Part shown: positions 51,687-64,000 of the stretch, piece by piece | Numbering within the stretch: the first letter of the stretch is position 1 | How the letters are laid out: each line of letters begins with the position of its first letter | Assembly (NCBI GenBank): GCA_903826405.1 | Contig: CAIKEH010000008.1 | Span: 81,276 to 145,275 of the forward strand | DNA: 64,000 bases | Direction: 5' to 3' | Source: an uncultured bacterium | GTDB taxonomy: Bacteria > Bacteroidota > Bacteroidia > Chitinophagales > Chitinophagaceae | The notes under the pieces: model-generated | What the model was told of the DNA's origin: nothing | What the model saw: the letters and a program-made list of their open reading frames with translations, nothing else | Databases searched by the model: none | Made by a program: the position numbers and the translations under genes

Positions 51687-52130
51687 ATGACAAGATTTCT
51701 TTTTTTGGCCTTTCTGATATTGGTCTGTGAAAAAATCATTGCCCAACAATCCGTTGCGACTAAAGCAGTGGATGAACTTCTTTTGAAAGAGTCTTCATTC
51801 AACTTTGGCAAGATAGCGCAGGGGAGGCCCGTTACACACGTCTTTGAGATCGTTAATGTTTCGAAAGACACCCTGAATCTTGAAAATGTTCAGGCATCCT
51901 GTGGATGTACCACACCGGAATGGGATCATTCATCTATTTTGCCAGGTAAGACCCGGGAGATCAAGGTGGGATATAATGCATTGGCCGAAGGTGGATTTGA
52001 AAAAAACATCAGCATATTCTATAACAAAGGACAATTGAAGACTCTGGTGATCCGTGGAGAGGTCTGGCACACTCCGGAACAATCCGCCCCTAAAAACAAT
52101 TCAATCGCTTTATTAAAGACCATAAATTAA
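51687..52130 (+). CDS. DUF1573 family secreted protein
   Basis: ORF 147 aa; FNFGKIAQGRPVTHVFEI ... ASCGCTTPEW. Confidence 0.9.
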   Translation: MTRFLFLAFLILVCEKIIAQQSVATKAVDELLLKESSFNFGKIAQGRPVTHVFEIVNVSKDTLNLENVQASCGCTTPEWDHSSILPGKTREIKVGYNALAEGGFEKNISIFYNKGQLKTLVIRGEVWHTPEQSAPKNNSIALLKTIN

Positions 52131-52138
52131 AATAAAAA

Positions 52139-52558
52139 ATGAAAAAGATCCTTTTAGCCATTGCCATCATCGGATTGGGTACTACTGCTTTCGCCCAAAC
52201 GACGCCCGCACCTGCGGCTGCACCAGTCAAGAAAGCCGACGAGGTACTCAAGTTCAAGGAAGTGAGATACAATTTCGGGAAGATCAAGCAGGGGGTTCCC
52301 GTAACGCATGATTTCGGATTCACGAATGCCGGAAGCACAGCTCTGATCATCGAAAACGCAACAGCATCCTGCGGTTGCACCACTCCTACCTGGCCACAGA
52401 AGCCGATCTCATCTGGTGCCGCTGACAAGGTTACAGCAGGCTTCAATGCCGCCAATGCAGGAGCATTCGAAAAGACCATTTTCGTAAAAGTCAAAGGCTA
52501 CGACCTCCCACTCGAAATAAAAATCGCAGGTGAGGTAGAAGCTAAGAAGACGAATTGA
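52139..52558 (+). CDS. DUF1573 family secreted protein (paralog)
   Basis: ORF 139 aa; YNFGKIKQGVPVTHDFGFTN ... ASCGCTTPTW. Confidence 0.92.
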   Translation: MKKILLAIAIIGLGTTAFAQTTPAPAAAPVKKADEVLKFKEVRYNFGKIKQGVPVTHDFGFTNAGSTALIIENATASCGCTTPTWPQKPISSGAADKVTAGFNAANAGAFEKTIFVKVKGYDLPLEIKIAGEVEAKKTN

Positions 52559-56535: not shown

Positions 56536-57103
56536 GTGATCATATTATCAAGGGTTCAAAAAAATCCATTTTACATATTGTCCGAATTCGACTTCCTTCA
56601 CTTTATGTGATGCCTCCAAAACACGGCATTTTATAGTTTTGCGCAAACCGCTTTGCACATTATTGTTCTTTGGAATTGATTACCATTCGCTTACAGATTT
56701 GGTTTATCTGATGTTAATGCGGCGGATCATGATTGCAGATTGAAAAATAACTCTATATTTGCTCATAATACTCACACCGATATCCTACCCAAATTACCAC
56801 TTCACTTTCGGAAGAAAAATATCCTATCAACCGCTTGACTTAATCTTCCAACTTCCTTCGGAACGACCTCCATTCCCTCTCTACACAATTGGAGTTTTAC
56901 CGCTTTTGAAATGATCATACTGTCATTAATCCGACACGATTCAGTTCAATGAGCTCGTCCATATCCTATTGGCAATTACCTACATTTTACTCCACCCCAT
57001 GATTTGAAAGAACGAAGGATTTCTTCGGGTTCTGCAGTATTTGCTGACCCGCAGGATGTTTCATTCCTAAAATGGTTCTTCAGGTAAGTTAAAATGTAGG
57101 GGT

Positions 57104-60100
57104 ATGAAAAGTAAAACACCGATTCGCCTAAGCTTCATCTGTCTGCTGCTGATTCAATTGTTGTCCATTCACGTCCGTTCCCAGAACGCCATTGTGACGG
57201 AGAACCAGTTGACAGGTAACCCCCGCAGTGAGTGGGATGTGAGTGGTGCGGGTGATCTGTCCATACAGGGATTCGCCACCGATATCAGTGTCAACAAGGG
57301 ATCTACGATCAATTTCAAGATCAGTTCACCGGTAGGTGTCAACTGTTCCATGAAAATTTACAGGCTTGGGTATTATAATGGCAATGGCGCCCGCCTGGTG
57401 ACCACTTTGCCGAACTTCTCCGCATCGGCTTCACAGCCTGGCTGCTTGACCAATTCCACCACGGGAATCATCGATTGTGGCAACTGGTCGGTCACCAGTT
57501 CCTGGGCCGTTCCCTCCACGGCCGTTACTGGCGTATACATCGCCAAACTGACACGCGCGGACAACAATGGATCCAGTCATATCATCTTCATCGTGCGCGA
57601 TGATGCCGCCACGGCGGATATCATGTTCAAGACCTCGGATGCCACTTGGCAGGCCTACAATGGCTACGGTGGCAACAGCCTCTATGTAGGCAATACTTCC
57701 TACACGGGAGGCCATGCGACCAAGGTGAGTTACAACAGGCCTTTCACCACGCGCAACGGCGGTGCCGGCGGTGGTGTTGCACAGGACTGGATCTTCAATG
57801 CAGAGTATCCGATGATCCGCTGGCTGGAACGAAACGGTTACAACATCAGCTATGTCACCGATGTGGACATGTCCCGGGATGCATCGGCCATCACCCCATC
57901 CAAGTACAAAGCCTTGTTCTCGGTCGGTCATGATGAGTATTGGACGGGCGAAGCGCGCGCACGTTATGAAACGGCGCGCAGCAACGGCGTCAATCTGGCC
58001 TTTTTCAGTGGCAATGAGGTCTACTGGAAATGCCGCTGGGAGAACAGCACCGACGGCTCCAATACTTCCTATAGAACACTGGTATGTTATAAGGAAGGAA
58101 CCCTGGGAGAGAATGTCTGCGGCACCAAGTGCGATCCGCTCACCAATGTGTGGACCGGTTTGTGGCGTGACGGCGCTGCCTACCCTTCGGCAGATGGCAA
58201 CCGTCCGGAAAACTCTCTGACCAGTCAGATCAGCTGGGGTGAGAACAGCGTATCCATGACGGTCCCGTCCACCTACAAATCACTTCGATTTTGGCGCAAC
58301 ACTTCGGTGGCGAGTCTGGCCAGCGGTGCCAGCGCCACCATGCCGCTGGGAACAGTAGGTTATGAATGGGATCCGGAGAATACCACCTTCGCCTCCAGCT
58401 ATCCGGGCGGACGGGTCATACTTTCCAACACCAATGTTGCCACCGGTCTGGTTCACAAGACTTCGATGTACAGATATAATAATGGCAACCGTGCCCTGGT
58501 CTTCGGTGCGGGTACGGTGCAGTGGTCTTGGGGTTTGGACAGTGTGCACGACAATGGCAATGCCGCCGCCAGTGCCAGCATGCAGCAGGCAACAGTGAAC
58601 CTGCTGGCCGACATGGGTGCTCAGCCGTCTTCCCTGCAATCAGCTCTGGTAGCTGCCACCGCAAGCACGGATGTCACGGCACCTGCAACGGTGATCAGCA
58701 GTCCCGTCAACAATGCGGCCATCGCCTCTGGATCGTCCATCACCATCAGTGGCACTTGTAGCGACGCAGCGGTCGTCGCTGGCGTGGAAGTATCCGTAGA
58801 TGGGGGTGTCACTTGGCAACTGGCCACCGGAACCACAAGCTGGACCTATACCTGGACACCTACCGCAGGAGGCACCTATACCATAAAGGCCAGGGGCTTT
58901 GATGACTCCGGCAACCTGCCCGCAGTAGGCTCAGAGACCACCATCACGGTAACGACTGGAGCCGTCACGTACAACTGCCCTTGTTCGGTCCTTCCATCAT
59001 CCAACCCTTCTGTCACCAACTCCAACGACGCTACGGGCGGTATCATGCTGGGTATGAAGTTCCGCGCCTTGGTCGGGGGAACGGTGACCGGAATCAAGTT
59101 CTACAAGGCCTCCGGCAATACAGGTACACATGCCGGCTATCTATATTCTTCCACCGGTACGGTGCTGGCATCGGCAACATTCACCAGCGAAACAGCAACT
59201 GGATGGCAGGTGGCCACCTTCAGCACACCGGTGACCATCTCCGCCAATACGACTTATGTGGCGGCCTACTTCAGCTCAGCTGGTAATTACAGTACAACGA
59301 ACAGCTACTTCACCACCGCCACAGTGAACGGTCCGCTGCGCGGACTGGCCAATGGTGAAGATGGATCCAATGGCCTGTATAAATACACCAATACGGCCGC
59401 ATTCCCTACCAGTACTTTCCAAAGCGCCAATTATTGGGTGGACGTTATCTTCAACACAAACGCCACCGTTCAGGATCTGACGCCGCCCACTGTTAGCAGC
59501 ACGTCGCCGTCGTCGGGATCGAGCGGCGTTTCGGCCACCACCACGGTGAGTGTATTCTTCAGTGAGGAGATGACGGCATCAACCGTAAATAGCACTACGC
59601 TTACCCTCACACAAGCCGGAACGGCGATTCCGGCCACGGTGGTTTACAATACAGGCCTGTCCAGCGCCACGCTGACTCCTTCTGCAGCACTATCCGCCAG
59701 CACAACCTATACGATCACCGTGAAGTCCGGTGCTGCAGGTGTCAAAGACCTTGCAGGTAATGCACTGGCCAGTGATTATACGGCATCTTTCACTACGGTA
59801 GCGGCTACGGTACCTTCTTCCCCCATGAACGACGGACCCGGCGGCCCGATATTGGTGATCAGCAGCTCTTCCAATCCGTTCAGTCTGTATGCAGCTGAGA
59901 TCCTGCGCGCTGAAGGCTTCAATGAATATAAGGTGCTCGACATATCGGCGGTGACCCAGACTCTCATCAATAACTATGATGTGGTCATATTGGGGGATAT
60001 CATACTTAATTCCTCACAAGTGACCTTGTTGACCAACTGGACAACTTCTGGTGGCACGCTGATCGCATTGCACCCGGATAAGCAACTCTCGTCTTTGCTA

Positions 60101-63100
60101 GGCATCACCAGTGTGGGTTCTACGCTGAGCGACCAGTACCTGCTGGTGAACACCACCTCGGGACCCGGCGCAGGCATTGTCGCTCAGACCATGCAGTTCC
60201 ATGGACCGGCAGATCTATATACTGCCAATGTGGGCACCACGGTGCTGGCAACCTTATATTCCAGCGCTACGGCAGCAACAACCAACCCTGCCGTTACCAG
60301 CCGCAATGTAGGTAGTTCAGGAGGTCAGGCCATCGCCTTCACTTACGACCTGGCAAAGTCCATCGTCTACACCCGCCAGGGAAACCCATTGTGGGCCGGA
60401 CAGAAACGTGATGGACAGACAGGCCCCATTCGTTCCGATGACATTTTTTATCCCAACTGGCTGGATAAAAACAAGGTCGCCATACCACAGGCAGATGAAC
60501 AGCAACGATTGCTAGTCAACATCATCCTGAGTGGCAATGCCGATAAAAAACCCCTGCCGAGGTTCTGGTTCCTGCCCAAAGGCAAGAAAGCCGCTGTGGT
60601 CATGACCGGCGATGACCATGCGGTAGGCGGCAACTCCACTGCAAAACGCTTCGACCAGTATGTGGCTGCCACCTCTACAAACACGGCACAGGATGTGGCC
60701 GATTGGAATGCAGTGAGAGCCACCTCATACCTGTTTCCGAATGTTGCACTCACCAATGCCGATATCATCAAGTATCAGAACTTGGGATTCGAGTTGGGGC
60801 TGCATCTGAATACCAATTGCGGCAACTACACTTCCTCCTCATGGAGCGGATACTGGACCACCCAGTTAGCAACACTTAAAACTAATTTTCCTGGTCTTAC
60901 TCCACAGGTTACCCACCGAACCCACTGCATCGCCTGGAGCGATTGGGCGACGCAACCCAAATTGGAAACGAAACTGGGCATCCGCATGGATTGCAACTAC
61001 TATTACTGGCCGGATGTCTGGGTGGCTGACAAACCCGGTATGTTCACCGGTTCAGGAATGCCCATGCGGTTCGCAGATCTGGATGGCTCGATGATCGACT
61101 GCTACCAGGTGGCTACGCAGATGACAGATGAATCGGGCCAAACCTATCCATTGCATATCAATGCTCTGCTCGACAGCGCTCTGGGTACGGCTGGATATTA
61201 TGGTGTCTTCTGTGCCAATATGCATACGGACATTTACCCAGAGCCCAGTTCCGACTCTATCGTGGCTGCCGCCTTGGCGCGTCAAGTACCGGTGGTATCG
61301 GCAAAGCAGATGCTCGACTGGCTGGAGGGCCGCAACAGCTCCAGTTTCTCGGCCATGTCCTGGACAGCAGGGAAACTGAGCTTCACCATCAACCAAGACA
61401 GCCGTGCACGGAACATGAAGGCCATGCTCCCAAGCAATATAGCAAGTGGCGACTTTGTCTCCTTGACCTTGAATGGATCTGTGGTGGCCGTAACCACACA
61501 AACCATAAAGGGGGTCTCCTATAAGTTCTTTGATGCCGTTGGCGGGAACTACGTGGCTTCCTATGGTGATCAGACACCTCCCGTGATCAGTAACGTCACT
61601 GCCGTACCGAACACCAACGGAACAGCCATCATCACCTGGACCACGGATGAGAAAAGCGACAGCAAAGTGGACTTCGGAAAGTCAACTACTTCACTGGACT
61701 CCACCAGATCCGACTCGGCAAGGGTCACTTCCCACAGCATGACTTTAACGGGATTGAGTTCGGGAGTAACTTATTACTTTAAGGTCACATCGAAGGATTC
61801 CGCACAGAATGCAGCCATGGCACCTTCCACACAGGGAAGTACGCTATCCTTTATCATGCCTGATGTTGCGCCTCCCGTGATCAGCAACGTCATGTCCACG
61901 CCGAACACCAATGGCACAGCCATCATCACTTGGACCACGGATGAGAAAAGCGACAGCAAAGTGGACTTTGGAAAGTCAACTACTTCACTGGACTCGACGA
62001 GATCCGACACAGCAAGAGTCACCTCACACAGCATCACCTTGTCAGGATTGAGTTCAGGAACAACCTATTATTTTAAGGTCACTTCGAAGGATTCCTCACA
62101 AAATCTAACCACTACAACTTCCTCTAAGGGAAATACCCTTTCGTTCACCATGCCTGATTTTGTGCCTCCTGTGATCAGCAACGTCACGGCTGTACCGAAC
62201 ACGAATGGCACAGCCATAATCACCTGGACCACGGATGAGATAAGCGACAGCAAAGTGGACTTCGGAAAGCTATCGGCTTCACTGGACTCCACTAGGTCAG
62301 ACACGGCAAAGGTCACCAGCCACAGCATCATATTGACGGGGTTGAGTTCCGGAACAACTTATTACTTTAAGGTCACTTCCAAGGATTCCTCACAGAATGC
62401 GGCAACAACACCCTCCACAGTGGGAAGTACACTTTCTTTTATCGTCCCCGATTTCGCTCCTCCCGTGATCAGCAACGTCACGGCTGTAGCCAACACGAAC
62501 GGCACCGCCACCATCACTTGGACCACAGATGAGAAAAGCGACAGCAAAGTGGACTTCGGAAAACTATCAGCTTCGCTTGACTCCACGAGATCCGACACAG
62601 CAAGAGTCACCTCACACAGCATGACACTTACAGGATTGAGTTCAGGAACAACGTATTACTTTAAGGTTACTTCAATGGATTCCTCACAGAATGTAGCCAT
62701 GGCACCTTCCGCACTGGGAAGTACACTTTCCTTCAACATGCCTGATGTTCTGCCTCCCCTGATCAGTAACGTGACAGCAGTGCCGAACACTAATGGAACG
62801 GCCATCATCACCTGGACCACGGATGAGATAAGCGACAGCAAAGTGGATTTCGGAAAACTATCAGCTTCACTGGACTCCTTGAGATCAGACGCAGCAAGGG
62901 TAACCTCTCACAACATGATACTGACGGGATTGAGTTCGGGAACAACCTATTACTTCAAGGTCACTTCTAAGGATTCCGCACAGAATGCAGCCACAGCACC
63001 TTCAGGACCGGGAAGTACACTTTCCTTCACCATGCCGTATGCCATACCACCAGTGGTCAGTAACATTATTGCCACACCTAATAAGAATGGCACGGTGATC

Positions 63101-64000
63101 ATTACTTGGACAACTGATAACTTGAGCGACAGCAGAGTCGACTATGGGCTGGACCCATCAACCCTGTCGTCAAATTTGGTCAATGCAAATTTAGTCACCA
63201 ATCATAGTATGACCATAAACGGGCTGCAAAGCGGATCTACTTATTATTTCACCGTAATATCAAAAGATCCCTCTCAAAATTATTTGACCATACCTGTTAC
63301 ACCGGGCATTCCTTTATCTTTCACCATGCCCGATTTCACAAATCCGACAATCAGCAATATTGTGGTTGTTCCCAACAATGACGGAACAGCCAGCATCAAC
63401 TGGATCACGGACGTCTCTTGCGACAGCAAGGTGGATTATGGAACCGATATATCCAATCTGAGTTCCAATATGATGGATGTAAATGTGAACACCACCCACA
63501 CATTAATACTTACAGGTCTGAATTCAGGAACAACATATTATTTCAGGGTGACGTCAAAAAATGTTGATCTGAATTCCGTCACGTCGCCAGCACTTACCGA
63601 GAATCCTATTTCCTTTACCATGCCGGATTTCACACCTCCCATCATCAGTAACGTCATAGCCACGCCGAATACCAATGGCACAGCCATCATCACTTGGACC
63701 ACAGATGAGAAAAGTGACAGCAGGATCGATTATGGCACCTCTAGCACATCGCTTGGACTGAACACTATCGACGCCAATCTGGTCACCAGCCATAGCATCA
63801 CGCTATCCGGCCTGAGTTCCACCACCCTTTACTACTTCAGGGTCAGTTCCAAGGATTCTTCCTTGAATTCAACTACCTCACCAGTGGCTTCATCGAGTCC
63901 GCTGACCTTCACGATGCCTGATTTCGCACCTCCAGTGATCAGTGCCATTGCAGCTGCTCCCAATAGCAATGGCACGGCCATCATCACCTGGACCACGGAT
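57104..64000 (+). CDS. Giant secreted multidomain protein (truncated by window end): DMF-ase beta-like, Ig-like, DUF4082-like, Big_5-like, ThuA/GATase-like, polysaccharide-deacetylase-like, tandem FN3
   Basis: Manual translation from ATG 57104 (MKSKTPIRLSFICLLLIQLLSIHVRSQNAIVTENQLTGNP...) runs 2299 codons with no stop; absent from the ORF track because it has no stop in the window. Confidence 0.92.
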   Translation, partial: MKSKTPIRLSFICLLLIQLLSIHVRSQNAIVTENQLTGNPRSEWDVSGAGDLSIQGFATDISVNKGSTINFKISSPVGVNCSMKIYRLGYYNGNGARLVTTLPNFSASASQPGCLTNSTTGIIDCGNWSVTSSWAVPSTAVTGVYIAKLTRADNNGSSHIIFIVRDDAATADIMFKTSDATWQAYNGYGGNSLYVGNTSYTGGHATKVSYNRPFTTRNGGAGGGVAQDWIFNAEYPMIRWLERNGYNISYVTDVDMSRDASAITPSKYKALFSVGHDEYWTGEARARYETARSNGVNLAFFSGNEVYWKCRWENSTDGSNTSYRTLVCYKEGTLGENVCGTKCDPLTNVWTGLWRDGAAYPSADGNRPENSLTSQISWGENSVSMTVPSTYKSLRFWRNTSVASLASGASATMPLGTVGYEWDPENTTFASSYPGGRVILSNTNVATGLVHKTSMYRYNNGNRALVFGAGTVQWSWGLDSVHDNGNAAASASMQQATVNLLADMGAQPSSLQSALVAATASTDVTAPATVISSPVNNAAIASGSSITISGTCSDAAVVAGVEVSVDGGVTWQLATGTTSWTYTWTPTAGGTYTIKARGFDDSGNLPAVGSETTITVTTGAVTYNCPCSVLPSSNPSVTNSNDATGGIMLGMKFRALVGGTVTGIKFYKASGNTGTHAGYLYSSTGTVLASATFTSETATGWQVATFSTPVTISANTTYVAAYFSSAGNYSTTNSYFTTATVNGPLRGLANGEDGSNGLYKYTNTAAFPTSTFQSANYWVDVIFNTNATVQDLTPPTVSSTSPSSGSSGVSATTTVSVFFSEEMTASTVNSTTLTLTQAGTAIPATVVYNTGLSSATLTPSAALSASTTYTITVKSGAAGVKDLAGNALASDYTASFTTVAATVPSSPMNDGPGGPILVISSSSNPFSLYAAEILRAEGFNEYKVLDISAVTQTLINNYDVVILGDIILNSSQVTLLTNWTTSGGTLIALHPDKQLSSLLGITSVGSTLSDQYLLVNTTSGPGAGIVAQTMQFHGPADLYTANVGTTVLATLYSSATAATTNPAVTSRNVGSSGGQAIAFTYDLAKSIVYTRQGNPLWAGQKRDGQTGPIRSDDIFYPNWLDKNKVAIPQADEQQRLLVNIILSGNADKKPLPRFWFLPKGKKAAVVMTGDDHAVGGNSTAKRFDQYVAATSTNTAQDVADWNAVRATSYLFPNVALTNADIIKYQNLGFELGLHLNTNCGNYTSSSWSGYWTTQLATLKTNFPGLTPQVTHRTHCIAWSDWATQPKLETKLGIRMDCNYYYWPDVWVADKPGMFTGSGMPMRFADLDGSMIDCYQVATQMTDESGQTYPLHINALLDSALGTAGYYGVFCANMHTDIYPEPSSDSIVAAALARQVPVVSAKQMLDWLEGRNSSSFSAMSWTAGKLSFTINQDSRARNMKAMLPSNIASGDFVSLTLNGSVVAVTTQTIKGVSYKFFDAVGGNYVASYGDQTPPVISNVTAVPNTNGTAIITWTTDEKSDSKVDFGKSTTSLDSTRSDSARVTSHSMTLTGLSSGVTYYFKVTSKDSAQNAAMAPSTQGSTLSFIMPDVAPPVISNVMSTPNTNGTAIITWTTDEKSDSKVDFGKSTTSLDSTRSDTARVTSHSITLSGLSSGTTYYFKVTSKDSSQNLTTTTSSKGNTLSFTMPDFVPPVISNVTAVPNTNGTAIITWTTDEISDSKVDFGKLSASLDSTRSDTAKVTSHSIILTGLSSGTTYYFKVTSKDSSQNAATTPSTVGSTLSFIVPDFAPPVISNVTAVANTNGTATITWTTDEKSDSKVDFGKLSASLDSTRSDTARVTSHSMTLTGLSSGTTYYFKVTSMDSSQNVAMAPSALGSTLSFNMPDVLPPLISNVTAVPNTNGTAIITWTTDEISDSKVDFGKLSASLDSLRSDAARVTSHNMILTGLSSGTTYYFKVTSKDSAQNAATAPSGPGSTLSFTMPYAIPPVVSNIIATPNKNGTVIITWTTDNLSDSRVDYGLDPSTLSSNLVNANLVTNHSMTINGLQSGSTYYFTVISKDPSQNYLTIPVTPGIPLSFTMPDFTNPTISNIVVVPNNDGTASINWITDVSCDSKVDYGTDISNLSSNMMDVNVNTTHTLILTGLNSGTTYYFRVTSKNVDLNSVTSPALTENPISFTMPDFTPPIISNVIATPNTNGTAIITWTTDEKSDSRIDYGTSSTSLGLNTIDANLVTSHSITLSGLSSTTLYYFRVSSKDSSLNSTTSPVASSSPLTFTMPDFAPPVISAIAAAPNSNGTAIITWTTD
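61577..64000 (+). repeat. Tandem 294-bp coding repeats (98 aa FN3-like units), at least nine, last truncated
   Basis: Unit starts (PPVISN-type) at 61577, 61871, 62165, 62459, 62753, 63047, 63341, 63635, 63929: spacing exactly 294 bp each time. Confidence 0.97.

Follow-up and report, generated by a model that had tools for sequence, protein, structure and literature searches.

A contig-truncated Chitinophagaceae gene for a very large, probably exported protein with a dimethylformamidase-like domain and a module predicted to resemble NDST-type N-deacetylases

Introduction

How charged and how sticky a biofilm polymer is depends on N-deacetylation, and so does the sulfation of heparan sulfate. 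The enzymes NDST, Agd3, PelA and PelADA, each of which was discovered singly, carry out such reactions with a two-domain plan. In NDST1, a Rossmann-like N-terminal domain, described as non-catalytic, is followed by a deacetylase domain in which D319 is the base, D320, H389 and H393 bind the metal, and H529 is the acid (PMC10864358). The same arrangement of an alpha/beta domain and a deacetylase domain has been described for Agd3 (CE18; PMC7229062) and for PelADA of B. cereus (CE26/CBM114; PMC13254593), and the alpha/beta domain of PelA (CE21) has been likened to IFT52 and PhzE (PMC12022489). All of these are polysaccharide N-deacetylases (PMC10864358, PMC7229062, PMC12022489, PMC13254593).

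Two amide-cleaving enzymes of a different kind are also relevant here, the N,N-dimethylformamidase (DMFase) of Paracoccus (6LVB) and N-acetyl-(R)-beta-phenylalanine acylase (8HUY/8I5A), which have in common an Ig domain I and a ThuA-like catalytic domain III. The DMFase report gives Y440 and E521 as iron ligands and describes alanine mutants of H519 and N547 as inactive (PMC7686228).

We describe here a gene in which counterparts of both kinds of enzyme appear to be joined. It lies at the end of a 64,000-nt stretch of DNA from an uncultured bacterium of the Chitinophagaceae, which we refer to as the window.

Results

The gene is the 5' part of a longer coding sequence, and occupies positions 57104..64000 of the plus strand. 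Translation from the ATG at 57104 to the last base gave 2299 codons without a stop, as the initial annotation had stated, and the preceding in-frame stop is a TAA at 57068. That annotation had also described the frame as missed by the ORF track; we found it in the ORF list solely as a 3'-open frame, and it is absent from the closed-ORF track for that reason. Extension past 64000 had been proposed as a check. However, a search of the host genome showed that base 64000 is the final base of its contig (C8, 145,275 bp), and the frame is therefore cut by the assembly and not by the window alone. The break lies within an array of FN3 repeats, and the C-terminus of the protein is missing. Two small secreted proteins, which by eye resemble DUF1573 paralogues, are encoded side by side at window positions 51687-52558.

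Searches of the host's own genome for the missing 3' end, made with the DNA of the whole gene and with its last 151 bases, returned only the repeats of paralogous genes on a second contig, C26. The last 377 bp of the window (63624-64000) are 97% identical to the FN3 repeats of a C26 paralogue (L007:5182-5558), whereas the enzyme-encoding parts of the two genes are just 67-68% identical in DNA. This pattern suggests recent recombination or gene conversion among the FN3 units. It would also explain the break in C8, of which these near-identical repeats are the likely cause. C26 is not a plain continuation of C8, since its paralogues are complete, with starts and stops of their own, and since the 377-bp match is 97% and not 100%. 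Matches to the T9SS sorting domain Por_Secre_tail near the starts of four other contigs (C24, C22, C35 and C50) were likewise rejected as the continuation; these contig ends bear different repeats, and none has FN3 units of the type found in the window gene.

The encoded protein consists of a predicted signal peptide, a DMFase-like Ig and catalytic region, a Big_7 domain, DUF4082, a Big_5 domain, a module of 570 amino acids, and the FN3 array. The predicted signal peptide (MKSKTPIRLSFICLLLIQLLSIHVRSQ; 57104..57184, plus strand, as are all features below) was recognized by eye from the sequence. Pfam located the DMFA2_C (N,N-dimethylformamidase large subunit-like) amidase domain at 57350..58549 (PF20254, aa 83-482, E 7.5e-92), the Ig domain Big_7 at 58682..58891 (aa 527-596, E 1.4e-11), DUF4082 at 59006..59440 (aa 635-779, E 6.9e-45) and the Ig domain Big_5 at 59477..59797 (aa 792-898, E 2.1e-23). 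The FN3 array (61568..64000; fn3/PF16656) begins at about aa 1489 (fn3 E 4.2e-33) and, as judged from spacing, comprises eight complete repeats of 98 amino acids and the start of a ninth, with a period of exactly 98 throughout. The strength of the DMFA2_C, DUF4082, Big_5 and fn3 matches excludes a chance frame. Every domain that the initial annotation had named was found, in the order guessed and with coordinates near the Pfam borders, and its Ig, DUF4082, Big_5 and FN3 assignments all correspond to Pfam matches. Por_Secre_tail ends both C26 paralogues (B and C) and an ortholog in another genome (G511). The window contig ends before any such sorting domain, and the window protein is most likely also a T9SS substrate.

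The DMFase-like assignment held at several levels. The DMFA2_C match scored 309 bits against a curated cut-off of 27, phmmer matched the domain to 8i5a, 8huy and 6lvb, and the nearest solved structures by sequence were those of the acylase and DMFase. Although the predicted structure of the domain was of moderate confidence (pLDDT only 68), its Foldseek matches included 8huy (E 1.5e-13) and 6lvb (E 3.3e-12); acylase and DMFase entries took the nine top places (E 1.5e-13 to 5.6e-12), well separated from the next match. An Ig domain I of the DMFase type is contiguous in the window protein (57236..57613), as placed by profile alignments (query 56-81 to 6lvb 3-28, and query 116-191 to 6lvd 326-400) and by the borders given for DMFase (PMC7686228). 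The pentraxin domain II that is inserted in DMFase at residues 74-337 is absent. The window domain further differs from DMFase and the acylase in being fused to other domains and probably exported, and its identity to them is low (11-16% in the Foldseek alignments).

The active site appears to be intact. Profile alignment pairs Y194 (57683..57685), nearly invariant among 11 divergent homologues, with the iron ligand Y440, and pairs the H276-D-E278 segment (57929..57937) with the essential H519 and the iron ligand E521; N304 (58013..58015) corresponds to the oxyanion residue N547. Y185 (57656..57658), invariant in the 11 homologues, aligns with the third iron ligand of DMFase, Y399. Counterparts of the complete site, with two Tyr and one Glu at the iron, the essential His and the Asn, are thus all conserved in the 11 homologues. 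E421, in the motif GYE (58364..58366), was not aligned by HMMER to the DMFase catalytic base E657. It is invariant in the same homologues and is the likely but unproven counterpart.

The middle module (residues 905-1484) had no Pfam match above threshold, and its deacetylase part had none even at E 10. Profile searches against both enzyme families had been proposed in the initial annotation as a check: DMFA2_C was matched, and the deacetylases were not. No CE family profile matched the module: HSNSD (PF12062) gave nothing there at E values up to 10, and Agd3_CE (PF25115, CE18) did not match it. Nor was any sequence-profile link found from the module to PDB entries, HSNSD-CE or Agd3_CE. A weak Glyco_hydro_42M match falls at the GATase-like domain.

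It was the predicted fold (AF2, Foldseek) that bore out the ThuA/GATase-like and polysaccharide-deacetylase-like domains of the initial annotation. AlphaFold2, run with an alignment of 23 relatives from which plasmid-database rows were left out, gave a model with a pLDDT of 89.6 and a pTM of 0.91. The top Foldseek match in the PDB was human NDST1 (9f6z, E 1.1e-9), which covered 564 columns with the 580-residue query; the superposition is loose (TM 0.31/0.24, rmsd 13) and supports the domain order and fold rather than a tight fit. The next matches were GH42 enzymes, probably by way of their GATase-like domain, CE4-type deacetylases (3rxz, 5n1j and 4dwe, E ~1e-6), IFT52 and a ThuA protein. As modelled, the module is a ThuA/GATase-like alpha/beta/alpha domain (59846..60550), matched by ThuA 4pxy, GH42 enzymes and the IFT52 N-domain, followed by a CE4-like (NodB-like) deacetylase domain (60551..61339), matched by NDST1 and the 3 deacetylases; together these span both domains of the NDST1 N-deacetylase half. 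A beta-rich segment (61340..61555, from AF2 secondary structure) completes the module. Invariant positions in the ThuA/GATase-like domain are H1033, TRQGN at 1090-1094, R1110 and ADE at 1130-1132.

We examined residue conservation in the module in 27 sequences from Bacteroidota and Alphaproteobacteria. Four residues are invariant in 27/27: D1170 of motif 1 (D1170, D1171, H1172; 60611..60619), H1234 of motif 2 (H1234 through C1239; 60803..60820), H1274 of motif 3 (R1272-T-H1274-C1275; 60917..60928) and H1374 of motif 5 (H1374-T-D1376; 61223..61231). After D1170, motif 1 has D, N or G at position 1171 and H or E at position 1172. These sequences have no HxxxH metal motif, as the residue 4 positions beyond H1234 is never His. 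From this conservation, D1170 would be the base and H1374 the acid, and the metal may be held by residue 1172 (or 1171), H1234 and H1274. One homologue has His at the position of C1239, and we considered C1239 as a metal ligand but rejected this, as the presence or absence of C1239 and C1275 agrees in all 27 sequences (both present in 21, both lost in 6, from two lineages). Since the two cysteines are kept or lost together, a disulfide is likelier, and it would tie motif 2 to motif 3. In the S. meliloti ml21 copy (L025:18001-19782), motif 1 reads GDN, and not GDD as in S. sojae and Pararhizobium.

Compared with the N-deacetylase half of NDST1 (9F6Z), the module would have the same order and fold, a Rossmann-like domain and then a (b/a)7 deacetylase, and by motif order the Asp base and the late His acid have putative counterparts. 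In contrast, it has no equivalent of the H389/H393 pair and no sulfotransferase domain, and it stands among Ig and FN3 units in a protein with bacterial export. With Agd3 (CE18/CBM87), PelA (CE21) and PelADA, which we compared by description, it shares the combination of an alpha/beta/alpha domain and a CE4-like exopolysaccharide deacetylase; for PelA the likeness extends to IFT52 and chorismate-enzyme (ADC synthase) structures, both of which are in the Foldseek list of the module. Unlike the three, it has no HxxxH and is fused to an N-terminal DMFase-like enzyme. As modelled, the module has the NodB-like barrel of the CE4 enzymes (Bc1974 5N1J, 3RXZ, 4DWE), in which an Asp motif is likewise followed by two His motifs, but it differs from them in the absence of a Pfam match and of HxxxH and in its extra N-terminal domain. 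This modelled resemblance to N-deacetylases of the NDST1/Agd3/PelA type, with an altered metal motif, was missed by the initial annotation.

The architecture is recurrent and not unique to the window gene. The order DMFA2_C-Big_7-DUF4082-Big_5-module is common to C26 paralogue C and several Chitinophagaceae proteins of 1643-2140 aa, so that the proposed search for the same architecture in other Bacteroidota was fruitful. Full-length or long matches to the module were present in about 13 of 200 Chitinophagaceae sampled; among 60 relatives no other genome had it, and a sample of 396 Bacteroidota genomes gave only weak partial matches outside the host. At 34-47% identity, tblastn located the module on 27 Sinorhizobium plasmid records and on a single plasmid each of Pararhizobium and Falsirhodobacter; in Sinorhizobium the middle module occurs alone, on pSymB, and the S. 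meliloti homologue has 733 aa. Phages and viral contigs gave no match, and a phage or viral origin was rejected. In a maximum-likelihood tree, the window and C26 copies are sisters (99/99), and under midpoint rooting the alphaproteobacterial copies nest within the Bacteroidota beside two copies from other genomes (G621c and G511a; 97/93), a placement that suggests transfer to rhizobia.

In four Chitinophagaceae genomes the counterpart of this protein has a type I dockerin at its end (L077:7131-14008, L078:6310-13183, L105:145-7039 and L112:1-5591; the match in L105 is weak). An adjoining gene of about 630 aa encodes DUF4082 and a T9SS tail, with, in L077, a weak cohesin match below the cut-off (PF00963, E 0.005). 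A cohesin-dockerin pair possibly anchors the enzyme in these genomes.

The surroundings of the gene vary. No polysaccharide genes were seen beside the window gene. On C26, paralogue B (1399 aa, without the module) and paralogue C (1693 aa) lie near a Wzy_C polymerase/ligase gene, and further neighbours were called flippase-like and Wzz-like by eye, with no match from Pfam. As judged by eye, an IS30-like transposase gene (L008:3993-5003) near the end of C26 adjoins one for a parallel beta-helix-like protein. The G511 copy has a gene for a Bac_transf initiating sugar transferase directly on one side and one for a nucleotide-sugar epimerase directly on the other. In S. meliloti the copy belongs to a Wzx/Wzy-type cluster that also includes polysaccharide export, rfbABC, O-antigen translocase, DegT, acyltransferase, sugar transferase, Wzz, CpsD and O-antigen ligase genes; the S. 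sojae locus is similar, and both copies adjoin a sugar transferase. A sugar deacetylase encoded in a polysaccharide cluster of pSymB has been described in S. meliloti under the name SMb21247 (PMC5498481), and may be the module homologue. Tandem DMFA2_C genes occur in two genomes of the host's genus, next to genes for a GT2, a WecD-like acyltransferase and a transaminase of the WecE type, which passed the equivalog cut-off in the single genome where this was tested. In one of the two, an MBOAT (DltB-like, NCBIfam E 7e-45, below cut-off) and SGNH-like gene pair is located between two DMFA2_C T9SS genes (L072:8011-10427). However, many copies in Chitinophagaceae, Pararhizobium and elsewhere are outside polysaccharide clusters. 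We rejected the idea that the module is a general marker of EPS clusters, as this is true at some loci only; a connection with polysaccharide synthesis recurs in several separate lineages and is suggestive, but not general.

Discussion

We interpret the frame as the beginning of a genuine Bacteroidota gene whose very large product would be a T9SS-exported double N-deacylase for an N-acylated surface or matrix polysaccharide, and assign this reading a probability of roughly 0.57. The first enzyme would be a domain like those of DMFase and N-acyl-amino-acid acylases that hydrolyses an amide bond, presumably in preference to an ester, with a mononuclear Fe3+ coordinated by two Tyr and a Glu. The second would be a divalent-metal de-N-acetylase of the CE4 superfamily, placed behind a ThuA/GATase-like domain that may form the substrate groove, and arranged like the N-deacetylase half of NDST1, Agd3 and PelA. 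The Ig, DUF4082 and FN3 units may serve as spacers or glycan contacts. Removal of N-acyl groups from amino sugars of the polysaccharide, possibly the cell's own polymer, would change charge and adhesion. The target predicted by the initial annotation, amide-bearing polymers or N-acylated glycans, is in line with this reading.

The deacylases might instead strip N-acyl groups from foreign polymers (chitin-like material, peptidoglycan, plant or algal glycans, or glycoproteins) so that other enzymes can degrade them. Exported Bacteroidota proteins that are very long and rich in spacers often have degradative roles, the dockerin of the four Chitinophagaceae genomes is a module typical of polysaccharide-degrading complexes, and many copies lie outside synthesis clusters. 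Yet several copies are inside Wzx/Wzy-type clusters, neither a glycoside hydrolase nor a SusC/SusD pair was seen next to the C26 paralogues or the window gene, and we regard a scavenging role as rather unlikely. A change in the chemistry of the middle module, making it an O-deacetylase or a glycoside hydrolase, is a poorer prospect still: CE4-like folds do include O-acetyl esterases, and many of the high Foldseek matches are GH42 enzymes, but most GH42 matches extend over only ~200-300 columns, probably the GATase-like trimerisation domain and not the catalytic barrel, and the nearest characterised two-domain match, NDST1, is an N-deacetylase, as are Agd3 and PelA by description.

Least probable of all, in our estimate, is that the protein acts mainly as a surface adhesin or matrix protein whose enzyme-like domains bind without catalysis. 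Such a role would fit the large share of its length given to FN3 and Ig units, the resemblance of the ThuA/GATase-like part to an NDST1 domain described as non-catalytic, and the missing HxxxH. It would leave unexplained the retention of the DMFase iron ligands, essential His and Asn, and the invariance of D1170, H1234, H1274 and H1374 in 27 divergent sequences from two phyla, for which domains that only bind would have no need.

We propose tentatively, and at somewhat less than even odds, that the module represents a new carbohydrate-esterase family, made up of bacterial N-deacetylases of polysaccharides. It would have the NDST-like two-domain plan with a rearranged metal site, formed by a His of motif 2 and a His of motif 3 next to a disulfide and not by HxxxH, and would have passed from Bacteroidota to rhizobia; in Bacteroidota it would be fused to an iron-dependent N-deacylase. 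The rearranged motifs together with the absence of a HMMER match to HSNSD-CE or Agd3_CE argue for a separate family. The module is frequent enough for one, yet it is nameless and profile-less in the libraries searched. The location of the S. meliloti copy in a pSymB polysaccharide cluster makes its role open to genetic test, and the module-bearing protein suggests a hypothesis for DMFase-like proteins beyond solvent degradation, namely that some are iron amidases for N-acyl sugars.

Homologues with the motif NDGE and not GDDH, mostly of 620-660 aa (L080:6424-8283, L081:8603-10465, L109, L110 and L111), form a clade of their own, which is perhaps a sister family with another job. Two of these homologues share synteny with SusC/SusD-like and sugar-dehydratase-like genes.
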